Positions 34,324 to 40,376 of a DNA stretch of 64,000 bases are shown one piece after another. The stretch is taken from contig NZ_AP027059.1 in NCBI RefSeq assembly GCF_030295325.1, positions 682,001 to 746,000 on the forward strand, given 5' to 3'. The DNA is from Haliovirga abyssi (GTDB lineage: Bacteria > Fusobacteriota > Fusobacteriia > Fusobacteriales > Haliovirgaceae). The position numbers and the translations under genes were made by a program. Position 1 is the stretch's first letter. Every line of letters starts with the position of its first letter. The notes beneath the pieces are model-generated. The model saw only the letters and a program-made list of their open reading frames with translations, did no database searches and was not told the origin of the DNA.

Positions 34324-35185
34324 AAATAAATTTTTAGAAGAAACTGGTGGAAATATTCGAAGTGAAAAAGAACTATTTTTATTTACTACAATAACTTTAT
34401 TTGTTATTATTTTTATTATTGATTTTTTTTCAGTTTCCATATTGAATTTAGTTGACATAAATAGTTATGTAAAGAAAAATTTACAGATAAGAGCTTATTT
34501 AGAAGATAGCTTAACAGATTCTGGAATAAAATCTGTGATTAGAGATATTCAAAATTTAAAAGATGTGAAATCTATAAAGTATATATCAAAAGAAACAGCT
34601 TTGAAAAATGTAGAAAAAAGTTTAGAGACAAAACTTAATTATTCTGAAAATCCTTTACCAAATGCTTTGCAAATAGAAATTTATTCTATTGAAAATATAG
34701 ATAAAATTTCATCATTTATAAGAAATGAACCTGGAATTGTTGAGGTAGATGTTAAGAGTAATTTTTTAAAAAAAATTAGTAAGTTTATAGATGAAATAAA
34801 TGGAAGTTTTATATTTATATTTATTTTTTTATTATTAATAATATTTATATTAATTGTAAACCTAATTCACACGACTATAAGGCAAAGAAAAAAAGATATA
34901 GGGCTAATGTATTGGTTAGGTGCAGAACTGTTATATATTAAAATTCCATTTATAATAGAATCTATGATAGCTACAGTTATAGCAACTATATTTTCAAGTG
35001 CAATATTTTTAGTTGGATATATATATATAAAAAATAAAATTGAACAATTGGGGATGTTTATAGTACTTCCAGAAATATCTAAAATAGGATTTGGACTATT
35101 TTTAGTTTTTTTATTAACATTATTAGTAACAGGAATAGCTAGTTATTTTTCTATAATATTATATTTGAGAAGTTGTGAGGATTAG
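34313..35185 (+). CDS. ftsX: Cell division protein FtsX
   Basis: A 290-aa membrane protein: one N-terminal helix (about residues 22-46), an extracytoplasmic domain (QIRAYLEDSLTDSG through GIVEVDVKSNFLKK), then three helices after residue 160 with the FtsX loop GLMYWLGAELLYIKIPFIIE. It transmits FtsE ATP hydrolysis to the periplasmic EnvC-like activator encoded next. The start lies inside the ftsE end and the stop 1 nt before the envC start. Confidence 0.92.
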   Translation: MRIKNKFLEETGGNIRSEKELFLFTTITLFVIIFIIDFFSVSILNLVDINSYVKKNLQIRAYLEDSLTDSGIKSVIRDIQNLKDVKSIKYISKETALKNVEKSLETKLNYSENPLPNALQIEIYSIENIDKISSFIRNEPGIVEVDVKSNFLKKISKFIDEINGSFIFIFIFLLLIIFILIVNLIHTTIRQRKKDIGLMYWLGAELLYIKIPFIIESMIATVIATIFSSAIFLVGYIYIKNKIEQLGMFIVLPEISKIGFGLFLVFLLTLLVTGIASYFSIILYLRSCED

Positions 35186-35186
35186 T

Positions 35187-36323
35187 ATGAAAAAAATAAT
35201 ATTTATATTTATAATATGTATTAACTATATATTTTATGCAGATACAATAGAAAATATGAACAGCAGGATAAAAGTGATAAACAGTAAAATAAAAAAAAGT
35301 AAAATTAAAGTAACTGGTTTGAAAAAAGAGGAAAAAAATATTATAAAAAAAATAAAAAAAATAGATTTAGAATTGAAAAAAGTTAAAAGAGAATACTATG
35401 AAGTTGAAAGTAAATATGTAGGTTTAAATAGAAAAATAGATTATTCTCATATAAACATAAAATTTATGGAAAAAGAAATTTGGAGTAAAAATGAGAATAT
35501 AAAAAAATATATTACTTCTTGGTATAAATATGGGGGAAAATTAAAATTAGAATATATACTCTCAGGAAATACTATTTATGATGTAATTAATAGAGAGGGA
35601 AATTTAAAAAAAATACTTAATTTTAATAAAAAATATATATCAAATGTAATGGAAAAACAACAAAAAGTTAAAATTCAAAAAAGTAAGATAGAAATGGAAA
35701 GAAATGAAGTATCTAAATTAAAAAAAGATTTGAGAGCAAAAAAAAATGAGATATCTAAAAAGCAATATGAAAAGAAAAAATTAATAAACAGTTTGAAGAA
35801 TAAAGAAAATTATTATAATTCTTTAGTTAAAGATTTAAGAAATGAAAAAAAACAGATAGAAAAAGAGATAAGTGATATAATAAAAAGTAAAACAGATATG
35901 AAAAAAAATAAAAATTTAAAATATATAAAAAATAAAATTAAAGAATTGAAATATCCTATAAATGGGAAAATTTTAGTTAGATATGGAGAATATAAAAATA
36001 TAGGAAATGGAAATAAGATAAAAAGTTCAAGGATAGAGATAAAAGGTAAAATAGGCGATAGGGTTAAAGCATCTGGAAAAGGGAGAGTTATATTTTCTGG
36101 TAAATTAGAACATATGGGAACTGTTATAATAGTTGACCATGGATATGGATTAACTACAATGTATGCTAATCTAATAGCTTCATACGTCCATGAAGGGAGT
36201 ATTGTAATTTCAGGAGAGAAAATAGGAGTATTAGGATTATCGGAAACAGGAGAAGCAGTCTTATATTTTGAAACAAGATTGGGAGTTAGTATGATAAATC
36301 CAATGATATTTTTAAAAAAGTAA
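35187..36323 (+). CDS. envC: EnvC-like murein hydrolase activator
   Basis: A 378-aa exported protein: signal peptide (about residues 1-20), a long coiled coil (about 22-250, with a restraining-loop-like segment SWYKYGGKLKLEYILSG), and a C-terminal LytM domain from about residue 260 (YPINGKILVRYGEY). Zinc ligands are lost: no HxxxD, YANL for YxHL, and LYFETR for HxHFE. This is the pattern of EnvC, which does not cut peptidoglycan but activates an amidase when FtsEX pulls on its coil. The ATG at 35187 is preferred over the GTG at 35175, which lies in the ribosome site. Confidence 0.9.
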   Translation: MKKIIFIFIICINYIFYADTIENMNSRIKVINSKIKKSKIKVTGLKKEEKNIIKKIKKIDLELKKVKREYYEVESKYVGLNRKIDYSHINIKFMEKEIWSKNENIKKYITSWYKYGGKLKLEYILSGNTIYDVINREGNLKKILNFNKKYISNVMEKQQKVKIQKSKIEMERNEVSKLKKDLRAKKNEISKKQYEKKKLINSLKNKENYYNSLVKDLRNEKKQIEKEISDIIKSKTDMKKNKNLKYIKNKIKELKYPINGKILVRYGEYKNIGNGNKIKSSRIEIKGKIGDRVKASGKGRVIFSGKLEHMGTVIIVDHGYGLTTMYANLIASYVHEGSIVISGEKIGVLGLSETGEAVLYFETRLGVSMINPMIFLKK

Positions 36324-36385: not shown

Positions 36386-36925
36386 ATGAAAAAATATTAC
36401 TATAATATATTGTTTTTTTTATTGGGAGTATCTATTTTTTATATAATATATAAATTAAAAAAAAAATGGTTAAAGTATAAAAGGAATAAAAAGTTTAAAC
36501 ATGGATTTGAAGAGGAAAAAAAAGCGGAATACTTTTTAAAAAATAGTGGGTATAAAACATTAGAATATCAAAAAGAAATAATTATAAAAGTAAAATCTAA
36601 TAAAGATGAAATAGAGATGAAAATCAGACCTGATTATATTGTGAAAAAGGGATTTGAAAAATATATAGCAGAAATCAAGACAGGAGAATTTGCTCCAAAA
36701 TTAACCAATAAATCAACAAGAAGACAGTTGTTAGAATATTATTTTATGACAGAATATAATGGGATTTTATTGGTAGATATGGATAAAAAAACAATAGAGA
36801 AAATAAAATTTTTTAGTCCAAAAATTGAGAGATTGAAATATAAAGTTTTTCTATTAAGAGTAATTTTAATATTTCTTTTAATTTTAATCGGTGGTGTGAT
36901 TTTAAATTATATAGGAACGTCTTAA
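36386..36925 (+). CDS. Membrane-anchored PD-(D/E)XK nuclease-like protein
   Basis: A 179-aa protein with one membrane helix at each end (about 5-23 and 153-176) and a soluble middle. The middle has the nuclease-fold signature in order: an acidic helix GFEEEKKAEYFLKNSG, Pro82-Asp83 (RPDYIV), Glu96-x-Lys98 (YIAEIKTGE) and Gln114-xxx-Tyr118 (RRQLLEYY). This is the active-site plan of PD-(D/E)XK enzymes, here held at the membrane with the catalytic domain probably cytoplasmic. I know no name for it. The ribosome site is weak (GAGAATAAAA). The last codons and stop (GGA ACG TCT TAA) come from a repeat element. Function unknown; DNA or RNA cleavage is inference. Confidence 0.68.
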   Translation: MKKYYYNILFFLLGVSIFYIIYKLKKKWLKYKRNKKFKHGFEEEKKAEYFLKNSGYKTLEYQKEIIIKVKSNKDEIEMKIRPDYIVKKGFEKYIAEIKTGEFAPKLTNKSTRRQLLEYYFMTEYNGILLVDMDKKTIEKIKFFSPKIERLKYKVFLLRVILIFLLILIGGVILNYIGTS

Positions 36926-36956
36926 AAATATAAGAAATTTATTTTTAAGACGTTCC
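36914..36956. repeat. Palindromic repeat, minimal copy overlapping a stop codon
   Basis: GGAACGTCTTAAAAATA and TATTTTTAAGACGTTCC form a perfect 17-bp inverted repeat around 9 nt. The left arm supplies the last three codons and stop of the preceding gene. Confidence 0.88.
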
Positions 36957-36977
36957 ATAAATGGATAGGTGTATAAT

Positions 36978-37775
36978 ATGAAAATAGGTATAATATATAA
37001 TAAAAATAAAATTAATGCAGTTGAATTTTACGAAATACTTATAAAATTTTTAAAAGATAAAAATATAAATTTTACCGAAGATATTAATGATGAAAAAATA
37101 AAATATTTAATAACAATAGGTGGCGATGGAACATTACTAAACGCAAGTAAAAAAATTATAGGAAGAGATATATTGGTTTTTGCTGTTAATATGGGTAAAT
37201 TAGGTTTTTTAACTGAGATAAAAGAGGAAGAAGCATTTGAAATTATAGAAAATGTTTTTAATAATAATTTTTCAATAGAAGAAAGAGAATTTTTAGAAAT
37301 AAAAATAAACGATAAGCTATATTATGCTTTGAATGATGCAGTTTTGGCAAAAGGGGATATATTAGCAAGATTGATAAAAATTAGCGTATTTGCAGATCTG
37401 AATTTTGTAAATACTTATAGAGCTGATGGAATTATTATTTCTACTGCAACAGGCTCAACAGCGTATTCATTATCTGCAGGAGGTCCTATTTTGACGCCTG
37501 ATTTAAGTGCTTTAATAGTTAATCCTATTGCACCACATACTTTAAGTGCTAGACCAATAGTTATGTCAGGAGATAAAAAATTATCATTTTCATTTATAGA
37601 AGATGAAAGTGATATATATATTACAATTGATGGACAAGAAAGTATAAAAATAAATAATGATGATAATTTAAGAATTACATTGTCAAACAAAAAATTAAGA
37701 TTAATAAGACCAAATAAAAGAGATTATTTTGCAGTGTTAAGAGAAAAATTAAAGTGGGGAGACGAATTATGTTAA
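36978..37775 (+). CDS. nadK: NAD kinase
   Basis: A 265-aa NAD kinase making NADP+. GGDGTLL lies at residues 48-54 and the second motif NTYRADGIIISTATGSTAYSLSAGGP follows, in pieces, from about residue 140, with the conserved Asp and Thr. The ATG at 36978 is used because the GTG at 36969 is part of the ribosome site AGGTG. It overlaps recN by 7 nt. Confidence 0.95.
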   Translation: MKIGIIYNKNKINAVEFYEILIKFLKDKNINFTEDINDEKIKYLITIGGDGTLLNASKKIIGRDILVFAVNMGKLGFLTEIKEEEAFEIIENVFNNNFSIEEREFLEIKINDKLYYALNDAVLAKGDILARLIKISVFADLNFVNTYRADGIIISTATGSTAYSLSAGGPILTPDLSALIVNPIAPHTLSARPIVMSGDKKLSFSFIEDESDIYITIDGQESIKINNDDNLRITLSNKKLRLIRPNKRDYFAVLREKLKWGDELC

Positions 37776-39436
37776 GAGAATTAAAAATAGAAAACTTAGC
37801 AATAATAAAAAGTCTTGATTTAGAGCTAGAGAATGGATTGGTAGTGCTAACAGGGGAAACAGGAGCTGGAAAATCAATTATATTAGACGGTATAAATATG
37901 CTTATAGGAGAAAAAATCTCTACAGAAATGATAAGAAGCGATGAGAAATATGTGGCATCAGAAGGAGTATTTGAAATTTCTAAAGATACAGAGATAGAAT
38001 TAAAAGAGATGGGAATAGATATGGAAGATGGGGAAATAATAGTAAGAAGAGAACTATATAAAAATGGAAGAGGAAAAATATTTTTAAATGGGAAAAGAGT
38101 TCCTGCTTCTACATTAAAAAAAATCATGAATTCAGTTATAGATTTAGTTGGGCAACATGAACATCAAGCTTTATTAGATAAAAAATATCATATAAAATTA
38201 ATTGATAAATTTTTAGATGAAGATGGAGTGAAATTAAAAAAAGAGGTAGAGGATATATATTTTAGCTATAAAGAGATTATAAAAAAAATAGAAAATAATG
38301 AATTAATTCAAAAAGAATTGAAAGATAAAAAAGAATTATATGAATTTCAATATAATGAAATTGAAGAAGTAGACCCAAAGGAAAATGAAGATGAAGTTTT
38401 AGAAGAAGAGTATAAAAAACTTTTTAATGCTGGAAAAATAAAAGAAAGCTTATCATTATCAAGAATTCTCTTGAAAGATGGAGAAAAAAATGTAATGGGG
38501 ATGATATCAAAATCTAAAAATGCAATATCAAACATATCTAGGTATGGAAAGGAATTTAAAGAAATTCTTGAAAAACTTGCAAATATCTATTATGATATAG
38601 AAGAAGCTGTGTATGGGATAGAAAATAGTGAAGCAGATGTTGAAATTGATGAGTATAGATTAAACAAAGTAGTAGAAAGATTGGATAAAATAAATAATCT
38701 GAAAAAAAAATATGGATATGATATTAAAGAACTATTGATTTATAAACAAGAAATAGAAGAAAAACTAAATAAAATAGATAATAATACAATTAATGAAACT
38801 GAATTGTTAAAAGAAAAAAGCAGGACAGAAGAGAAATATGAAAAAAAATCAAAAGAATTAACAGAAAAAAGAAGGAAAATAGGTGAATACATAGTATATA
38901 AACTAATAGAAGAGCTTAGTGATTTAAATATGAAAGGTATAAAATTTGAAGTTGAAATTAAATCAAAAAAAGAAATTTCTAAAACAGGTAGAGATAATGT
39001 AGAGTTTTTAGTTTCGACTAATATAGGAGAAGAGCTAAAATCATTATCTAAAATAGTATCAGGAGGAGAAGTTTCTAGAATTATGCTTGCATTAAAAGCT
39101 ATTTTTTCAAAAGTAGATAATATTCCAATATTAATATTTGATGAAATTGATACAGGAATAGGAGGCGAGACAGTAAGGAAAGTTTCTGAAAAATTAAGAG
39201 GGATTGCAGACAATGTACAAGTTGTGTGTATAACTCATTCGCCACAAATAGCAGCAGTGGCAAATCAACATTTTTATATAGAAAAAAATATATTGGATGA
39301 AAAAACTTCAACTAACGTTACAAAATTAAATTATGAAGCTAGAGTTAATGAAATATCAAGAATGCTTGGGGGAGAAGCTATTTCAGAAGCAGTAAAAAAT
39401 CATGCAAAGGAATTATTAAAGGAGGGGTTAAAGTGA
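37769..39436 (+). CDS. recN: DNA repair protein RecN
   Basis: A 555-aa SMC-like ATPase in double-strand break repair: Walker A GETGAGKS near residue 30, a long coiled coil with short hinge, and the C-terminal signature SKIVSGGEVSRIMLALK plus Walker B ILIFDEIDTGIGG. The start codon lies within the nadK end (7-nt overlap), which excludes the longer frame from 37754. The nadK-recN pair is a common bacterial neighbourhood. It overlaps the first CheX-like gene by 4 nt (GTGA). Confidence 0.95.
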   Translation: MLRELKIENLAIIKSLDLELENGLVVLTGETGAGKSIILDGINMLIGEKISTEMIRSDEKYVASEGVFEISKDTEIELKEMGIDMEDGEIIVRRELYKNGRGKIFLNGKRVPASTLKKIMNSVIDLVGQHEHQALLDKKYHIKLIDKFLDEDGVKLKKEVEDIYFSYKEIIKKIENNELIQKELKDKKELYEFQYNEIEEVDPKENEDEVLEEEYKKLFNAGKIKESLSLSRILLKDGEKNVMGMISKSKNAISNISRYGKEFKEILEKLANIYYDIEEAVYGIENSEADVEIDEYRLNKVVERLDKINNLKKKYGYDIKELLIYKQEIEEKLNKIDNNTINETELLKEKSRTEEKYEKKSKELTEKRRKIGEYIVYKLIEELSDLNMKGIKFEVEIKSKKEISKTGRDNVEFLVSTNIGEELKSLSKIVSGGEVSRIMLALKAIFSKVDNIPILIFDEIDTGIGGETVRKVSEKLRGIADNVQVVCITHSPQIAAVANQHFYIEKNILDEKTSTNVTKLNYEARVNEISRMLGGEAISEAVKNHAKELLKEGLK

Positions 39437-39903
39437 ACTATGAAAAAATTGCAGTAGATACAATATCGGATATATCAGAAAAGATAATAGGAGTCAAAGG
39501 AGAGGCATCTTATGTATGTGAGGAGATATCACCAATTTCTGTGGAAAATACTACAATAATAATTGGTATAGCAGGTCAAATAAAAGGTCAGCTTATTTTT
39601 GGTTTTACGGAGGAAACGGTAAGAGCTATAGCTTCTAAAATGATAGGTCAAAAAGTAGAAATGATAGATGAGCTTGCAATGAGTGCTATTGCTGAATTTG
39701 CAAACGTTTTATCAGGTAATGTAACTATAAATTTGGTGGAATCAGGGTCAAAAAGATTGGGAGTTTCACCGCCTTCTATAGTAACAGGAAAACATATGAA
39801 AATTTCAACAAAGATAAAGCCAATACATAAATTTAAAATTGAATATAGTGGAATTGGGGATATAACACTAAATATTGCATTAAAAGAGAAAACCAATAAA
39901 TAG
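39433..39903 (+). CDS. CheX-like protein 1
   Basis: A 156-aa protein of the CheC/CheX/FliY phosphatase fold. The active-site signature is present as SAIAEFANVLSGN with Glu88 and Asn91. CheX removes phosphate from CheY-type receivers. No chemotaxis or flagellar operon is seen in the window, so the substrate may be a stand-alone receiver such as the one at 18710-19081. Start GTG at 39433, overlapping the recN stop. A second, diverged copy follows after 14 nt. Confidence 0.8.
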   Translation: MNYEKIAVDTISDISEKIIGVKGEASYVCEEISPISVENTTIIIGIAGQIKGQLIFGFTEETVRAIASKMIGQKVEMIDELAMSAIAEFANVLSGNVTINLVESGSKRLGVSPPSIVTGKHMKISTKIKPIHKFKIEYSGIGDITLNIALKEKTNK

Positions 39904-39917
39904 AGAGGAGGAATAAA

Positions 39918-40376
39918 ATGAGAGTTGAATATATAAATCCTTTTGTTGCAGCAACTTTTGAGATATTAAAAACAGTAGCTAATGTGACTCCTAAAAAAGG
40001 AAAAGTAATTTTAAAAAATGAGCCTGTACCAAGTTATGGAGTATCAGTATTGGTTGGAGTAGTAGGAGAAGTAAAGGGACAAATAGCATATAGTTTATCT
40101 GAAGAAGCAGCAATGAAAATAGCATCAGCAATGATGATGGGAATGCCAGTTGAAGAGTTTGATGAAATGGCAAAAAGTGCTATTTCAGAATTAGCAAATA
40201 TGATAACAGGAAATGCAAGTACACAAATATCAGCACAAGGTTTAGTTGTGGATATTTCACCACCTACTTTAGTAACTGGAAGCAATGTACATATTAGTAC
40301 TGGAAATATGCAAACAATAGTTATTCCTGTGGAGACTGAATTAGGAATATTTGAGATAAATATTGCATTGGAATAG
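39918..40376 (+). CDS. CheX-like protein 2
   Basis: A 152-aa paralogue of the preceding protein, closer to classical CheX: VEYINPFVAATFEILKT at the start, VVGEVKGQIAYSLS, and the signature SAISELANMITGN with Glu91 and Asn94. Strong ribosome site GAGAGGAGG. The two could form a heterodimer. It stops 2 nt before the Xer recombinase gene. Confidence 0.84.
   Translation: MRVEYINPFVAATFEILKTVANVTPKKGKVILKNEPVPSYGVSVLVGVVGEVKGQIAYSLSEEAAMKIASAMMMGMPVEEFDEMAKSAISELANMITGNASTQISAQGLVVDISPPTLVTGSNVHISTGNMQTIVIPVETELGIFEINIALE

Follow-up and report, generated by a model that had tools for sequence, protein, structure and literature searches.

Gene order around X

The window analyzed computationally here, a stretch of 64,000 nucleotides from Haliovirga abyssi, includes a gene, hereafter X, which according to Pfam lies in the order ftsE-ftsX-envC-X-nadK-recN-cheX-cheX-xer. 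A previous sequence-only reading had located it between envelope division genes and nadK-recN, which is more precisely ftsE-ftsX-envC upstream and nadK-recN-cheX-cheX-xer downstream; the ORF, its strand and the positions given for P82-D83, E96-I-K98 and Q114-L-L-E-Y118 were found as claimed, and the helices proposed at both ends of the protein correspond to hydrophobic segments 4-22 and 154-172. The features are listed below; A4 is an alignment of 21 diverse X relatives.

35175..36323, + strand: envC/pcsB-like M23 peptidoglycan hydrolase (Pfam), upstream of X in 4/4 Fusobacteriota X loci
36386..36925, + strand: X, putative membrane-anchored PD-(D/E)XK (Cas4/AddB-fold) protein of 179 aa (ORF, ATG start, conservation, model, fold search)
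36395..36451, + strand: first hydrophobic helix, residues 4-22, predicted inner-membrane anchor (hydropathy, charge, model secondary structure)
36515..36517, + strand: Glu44, acidic residue of the first helix, invariant in A4
36632..36634, + strand: Asp83 of the PD motif, invariant in A4 and retained in Bacillota members without ExK
36671..36679, + strand: Glu96-Ile-Lys98, (D/E)XK motif; Glu and Lys invariant in A4, motif lost in 50/91 sampled homologues
36719..36739, + strand: Arg112-Arg-Gln-Leu-Leu-Glu-Tyr118, QxxxY motif of RecB/Cas4-type nucleases; R112, R113, Q114, E117 and Y118 invariant in A4
36845..36901, + strand: second hydrophobic helix, residues 154-172, predicted C-terminal membrane anchor, missing from some relatives (hydropathy; model helix 145-178)
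36969..37775, + strand: nadK, NAD kinase (Pfam), downstream of X in 61/63 loci of three phyla
37754..39436, + strand: recN, SMC-like DNA-repair ATPase (Pfam SMC_N match, gene order)

Between recN and the tyrosine recombinase gene (xer), positions 39433-40376 hold two successive CheX/CheC-like genes.

Fold, active site and membrane topology

Of the 63 ORFs in the window with 100 aa or more, 1 has the full spaced motif PD-x-(D/E)xK-x-QxxxY; shuffled proteins contain it with a frequency of 0.00095 each (0.095%), which gives ~0.06 expected among 63 ORFs. We used A4 as input for an AlphaFold2 model of the window protein, which reached a mean pLDDT of 91.6 and displays the core topology of the superfamily, alpha-beta-beta-beta-alpha-beta: a helix (3-53), sheet strands between residues 57 and 98, a helix (109-121), two strands and a last helix (145-178). 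In this model the membrane segment and the domain helix that bears Glu44 form one unbroken helix (residues 3-53). The top Foldseek matches in the PDB were SSO0001 Cas4, AdnA, the Cas4-family protein ACE1, Bax1, AddAB and Hjc, with moderate TM-scores (about 0.4), as expected since only the minimal core is common to these proteins; among viral models, phage PD-(D/E)XK and RecB/Cas4-like nucleases also matched X. Residues E44, Q62, D83, E96, K98, G100, R112, R113, Q114, E117 and Y118 are invariant in A4 (n=21), and the window protein has all six residues of catalytic type (E44, D83, E96, K98, Q114 and Y118). Model, structural matches and invariant residues together bear out the nuclease fold that had been proposed from the sequence, and make us confident that X of the window would adopt a Cas4/AddB-type PD-(D/E)XK fold.

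The net charge of X is +9 right after the first hydrophobic helix and +5 right before the second. Because of this pattern the positive-inside rule predicts a cytosolic domain with both termini outward, a topology in agreement with the proposed anchoring by both ends.

A library scan with the single sequence gave PF13366 (PDDEXK_3) with 18.9 bits versus a cut-off of 22, a PADLOC Cas4 match (5e-5) and, as the sole NCBIfam match, TIGR04256 (GxxExxY) with 17.6 bits (E 0.004, cut-off 35); no Pfam or NCBIfam model scored above its cut-off for the window protein, and we take these single-sequence matches as suggestive only. Profiles of the family linked it to Cas4 (2.6e-7 in PADLOC, and 9.7e-7), the best PADLOC matches being the Cas4 and DruK models. 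The relatives of X match several nuclease families weakly, including PDDEXK_1 (2.8e-5) and UPF0102/YraN (4.5e-6); PF02021 (UPF0102/YraN) is found weakly in 6/21 relatives and TIGR00372 (cas4) in 7/33 members, neither of them in the window protein, while PF02646 (RmuC) matches neither the window protein nor its relatives. When solved structures were searched, the single sequence gave no match and the profile gave marginal matches only.

Comparison with known nucleases

By fold (SSO0001, ACE1) and by sequence profile, the closest proteins to X are Cas4 and solo-Cas4 (COG1468), with which it has the Asp, the ExK and the QxxxY in common; however, X adds one or two membrane helices and is encoded in a housekeeping operon with no cas genes. 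All Cas4 proteins have a four-cysteine Fe-S module (PMC5704561), whereas the window protein has no cysteines and nearly all of its relatives have 0-3; we thus rejected X as a member of Cas4, since the four cysteines common to that family are absent. UPF0102/YraN and the PDDEXK_1 nuclease domains of AddB/RecB belong to the same superfamily, and some X members match them weakly, but those proteins are soluble or part of large helicase-nucleases, are found in other gene contexts, and match X below family level.

The sequence-only reading considered a membrane-fixed PD-(D/E)XK protein unusual; enzymes of this superfamily are indeed usually soluble, although membrane-tethered ones, RmuC, ShdA and COG4741, have already been described. 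RmuC and ShdA resemble X in having a PD-(D/E)XK domain that faces the cytoplasm behind an N-terminal inner-membrane helix, but both are much larger and have the N-terminal helix only, RmuC having coiled coils in addition, while X is 179 aa long and lacks PF02646. ShdA, described in 2023, is a membrane-anchored PD-(D/E)XK protein with DNA-degrading activity in vitro, which also pulls the chromosome towards the periphery of the cell (PMC10270631); it is the best experimental parallel to X. COG4741, described together with RmuC in 2005 (PMC1189080), comprises proteins of small size, most of them from archaea, in which a membrane helix at the N-terminus is combined with a minimal PD-(D/E)XK core carrying E-(V/I)D-E(V/I)K (PMC1189080). 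X is similar in size, N-terminal helix and minimal core; unlike X, COG4741 is mostly archaeal and YraN-related, neither a C-terminal helix nor a tlyA-nadK-recN context has been reported for it, and X has no corresponding Pfam match.

Distribution and genomic context

A profile search found X in only four of the genomes searched from the order of the window: the window genome itself (G000), the MAG 'Fusobacteria bacterium isolate AS22ysBPME_290' (G001), and G058 and G069, which belong to one Fusobacteriota genus. The other genomes of this order that were inspected had no X-like gene upstream of nadK, and in one of its two large families envC is located immediately 5' of nadK. Weak matches in other Fusobacteriota (E about 0.003-0.01) were considered due to chance, the profile search upholding only the four genomes above; two further matches, in G283 and G218, were rejected as YraN/UPF0102-like proteins. 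Outside Fusobacteriota X was detected in 36/50 genomes of the phylum of G238, 30/74 of the phylum of G356, 56/61 of the order of G936 and 7 genomes of the family of G298, counts that are affected by how sensitive the profile is and by the presence of draft genomes. The order of G936 belongs to the spore-forming Bacillota, as shown by the spoIVB-like gene that comes after recN, and is probably Paenibacillales; we infer the taxon names of the X-bearing groups except where the sequence record names them. Samples across other bacteria yielded almost no further members, and a contig scan recovered a single ortholog, its patterns having been taken from only two sequences.

A degenerate relative of 153 aa with an N-terminal membrane helix (E 7e-8) was seen in another lineage (locus L188, 1450-1911), adjoining anti-sigma-antagonist-like genes; it may be a very diverged X member outside the operon.

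The gene order around X is well conserved. nadK lies downstream on the same strand in the 61 of 63 loci mentioned above, and tlyA lies upstream in 45/59 non-Fusobacterial loci. The phylum of G238 shows tlyA-X-nadK-recN, with tlyA in 29/29 loci and nadK in 28/29, the remaining locus lying at a contig end. For the phylum of G356, nadK is the next gene after X in 29/30 loci, the exception reading tlyA-X-recN, and tlyA was observed upstream in 16. The Bacillota loci are arranged as dxs-tlyA-X-argR-recN in all 23 examined (22 distinct genomes), and in the family of G298 X is found outside the tlyA-nadK-recN slot. The four Fusobacteriota loci (L001, L002, L045 and L046) display envC-X-nadK-recN, with envC taking the place of tlyA. 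This arrangement looks like a division-gene operon joined to the tlyA-nadK-recN cluster; in one genus of Fusobacteriota nadK and recN are separated by an inserted nitrilase-like gene (L028 and L033, 2293-3078).

Proteins with a PD-(D/E)XK fold may have RNA as their substrate or may not be nucleases at all. The usual upstream neighbour outside Fusobacteriota is tlyA, which encodes an rRNA methyltransferase, and this would suit an RNase bound to the membrane, or a factor of rRNA processing, that is linked to TlyA. We regard this as very unlikely, given that the closest QxxxY folds and profiles are the DNA nucleases Cas4, AddAB and AdnAB, and that the Fusobacteriota loci have envC rather than an adjacent tlyA. 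From the QxxxY motif, the nearest folds and what is established for RecB/Cas4 proteins we infer that the substrate would be DNA rather than RNA.

The sequence-only reading also suggested DNA uptake or an action on entering phage DNA. The neighbours of X homologues are housekeeping genes (tlyA, nadK, argR, recN, dxs and ispA), and at the homologue loci examined no defence or competence genes adjoin it; neither phage, plasmid nor IMG/VR viral collections contained a match, leaving a phage or plasmid origin without backing, and comEC was found in each of the 23 genomes checked, whether or not they have X, so that competence does not discriminate between them. Moreover, X is near-universal and largely vertically inherited in some clades (36/50 and 56/61 genomes), unlike typical defence genes. 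A CRISPR, phage-defence or DNA-uptake role is unsupported by context. A membrane guard against foreign DNA, which would break down phage or plasmid DNA on entry, like ShdA in Shield or as proposed for COG4741, has in its favour that ShdA is a membrane-anchored PD-(D/E)XK protein of demonstrated anti-phage activity (PMC10270631), that such a role was proposed for COG4741 (PMC1189080) and that the best PADLOC matches are the Cas4 and DruK models; nevertheless, with housekeeping neighbours in every large X group, the vertical pattern just described, and a protein that stays conserved after its catalytic residues are lost, we find it improbable.

X was also considered as a substitute for AddAB/RecB, an idea unsupported by the genomes, most X-bearing ones that were checked having another PDDEXK_1 protein.

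Loss of the (D/E)XK motif in relatives

Conservation of the acidic residues and the Lys holds in the subfamily of the window protein (A4) but not throughout the family: 41 of 91 aligned members retain D/E83, D/E96 and K98, and 50 do not, which counts in part against the sequence-only reading. Every member sampled from the G238 phylum and the G298 family has the motif, as do G000 and G001; within the phylum of G356 it is present in four members, of which one has Asp in place of Glu and one lacks the Tyr. It is lost in most of the phylum of G356, in all sampled Bacillota, and in the Fusobacteriota genus to which G058 and G069 belong, which has IxN instead of ExK. A tree of the family built without the catalytic columns implies at least three active-site changes, a count that is a minimum on one tree with few columns and many open forks, and whose direction (loss of ExK) is taken from the superfamily.

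For the Bacillota branch, homology extends along the entire protein (hhalign 99.2%, E 6e-20), and its model (pLDDT 91.3) keeps the Cas4/AddAB fold according to the fold search. Its members retain Asp83, have a linker between the membrane helix and the domain, and lack the C-terminal helix; they also display conserved residues of their own (K64, S81, T110-G111-S112 and R115; loci L163-L184), with the signatures SRxFIDY and TGSxxRD, which suggests a changed binding site. Non-catalytic pairs gave dN/dS values of 0.04-0.18, with one pair at 0.33, and close catalytic pairs gave 0.10-0.16. These low ratios, like those of catalytic pairs, indicate purifying selection on the ExK-less genes, whose proteins are therefore functional.

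These data bear on a further explanation, in which X is a non-nuclease membrane scaffold that binds nucleic acid, a nucleotide or a partner such as NAD kinase or RecN, the motif of the window protein being kept for binding. The constraint on 50/91 homologues that have no (D/E)XK, the residues proper to the Bacillota branch and the position of nadK as the most constant neighbour outside Bacillota are all consistent with it. However, six catalytic-type residues invariant in 21 diverse members are hard to explain without catalysis, and in the Bacillota order argR, not nadK, comes after X; we hold the scaffold to be conceivable but rather unlikely.

Possible function of X

The reading that we prefer, and to which we would give an even chance, is that X is a membrane-tethered housekeeping protein with a nuclease fold that binds DNA and is catalytic in the window. 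It would be an inner-membrane protein with a helix at each end and a Cas4/AddB-type PD-(D/E)XK domain on the cytosolic face, where it would bind DNA at the membrane; the window protein might nick or trim DNA ends with a metal held by Asp83 and Glu96, plus Lys98, while the QxxxY residues would contact the DNA backbone. Several lineages have lost the (D/E)XK motif and yet keep the protein, so that the function common to the family is probably to bind or tether DNA at the membrane, cleavage being an extra kept in some lineages. The repeated loss could even mean that cleavage is not the function in active-looking members. A stronger form, in which the original job of the family was not cleavage and X is a widespread membrane anchor for DNA, encoded with recN, whose optional nuclease site was repeatedly discarded, we put forward only tentatively and consider doubtful.

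As for the housekeeping role itself, processing of the chromosome or of double-strand breaks near the membrane would be in line with the recurrent neighbour recN, and it is plausible that X acts with RecN in repair or nucleoid organisation. The possible chromosome link of the sequence-only reading is compatible with the adjoining recN and with ftsEX, envC and xer in the window. The X cluster is, however, an old housekeeping operon in which adjacency alone is weak evidence for a common function, and the proximity of recN or nadK may reflect history instead.

Membrane-tethered PD-(D/E)XK proteins are a known kind. X appears to be new within it, since no Pfam or NCBIfam model claims it, its relatives match known families weakly, and we found no description in the open-access literature on its gene order and on membrane pseudo-nucleases, while for the yqxC-ahrC-recN cluster of Bacillus that literature yielded one paper, on co-regulation of the terpenoid pathway; the family, its operon and the repeated loss of its active site thus appear to be undescribed. 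In several phyla X occupies the same position of the tlyA-nadK-recN operon, and nearly all genomes of one Bacillota order have it; the many relatives that are still conserved without the cutting residues suggest that its work at the membrane goes beyond DNA cleavage. Active and inactive variants in the same operon slot offer a direct test of what a membrane-fixed nuclease fold does beyond DNA cutting, and also of a possible involvement of the membrane in the RecN-linked repair of these bacteria.

Finally, the last codons of the X gene overlap a perfect 17-bp inverted repeat with a 9-nt loop (36914-36956; fold z-score -6.4) that has no T-run. The 15-base arm of this repeat (at most 1 mismatch) has 58 copies in the genome versus 1 for the reversed control; it is a dispersed palindromic element.
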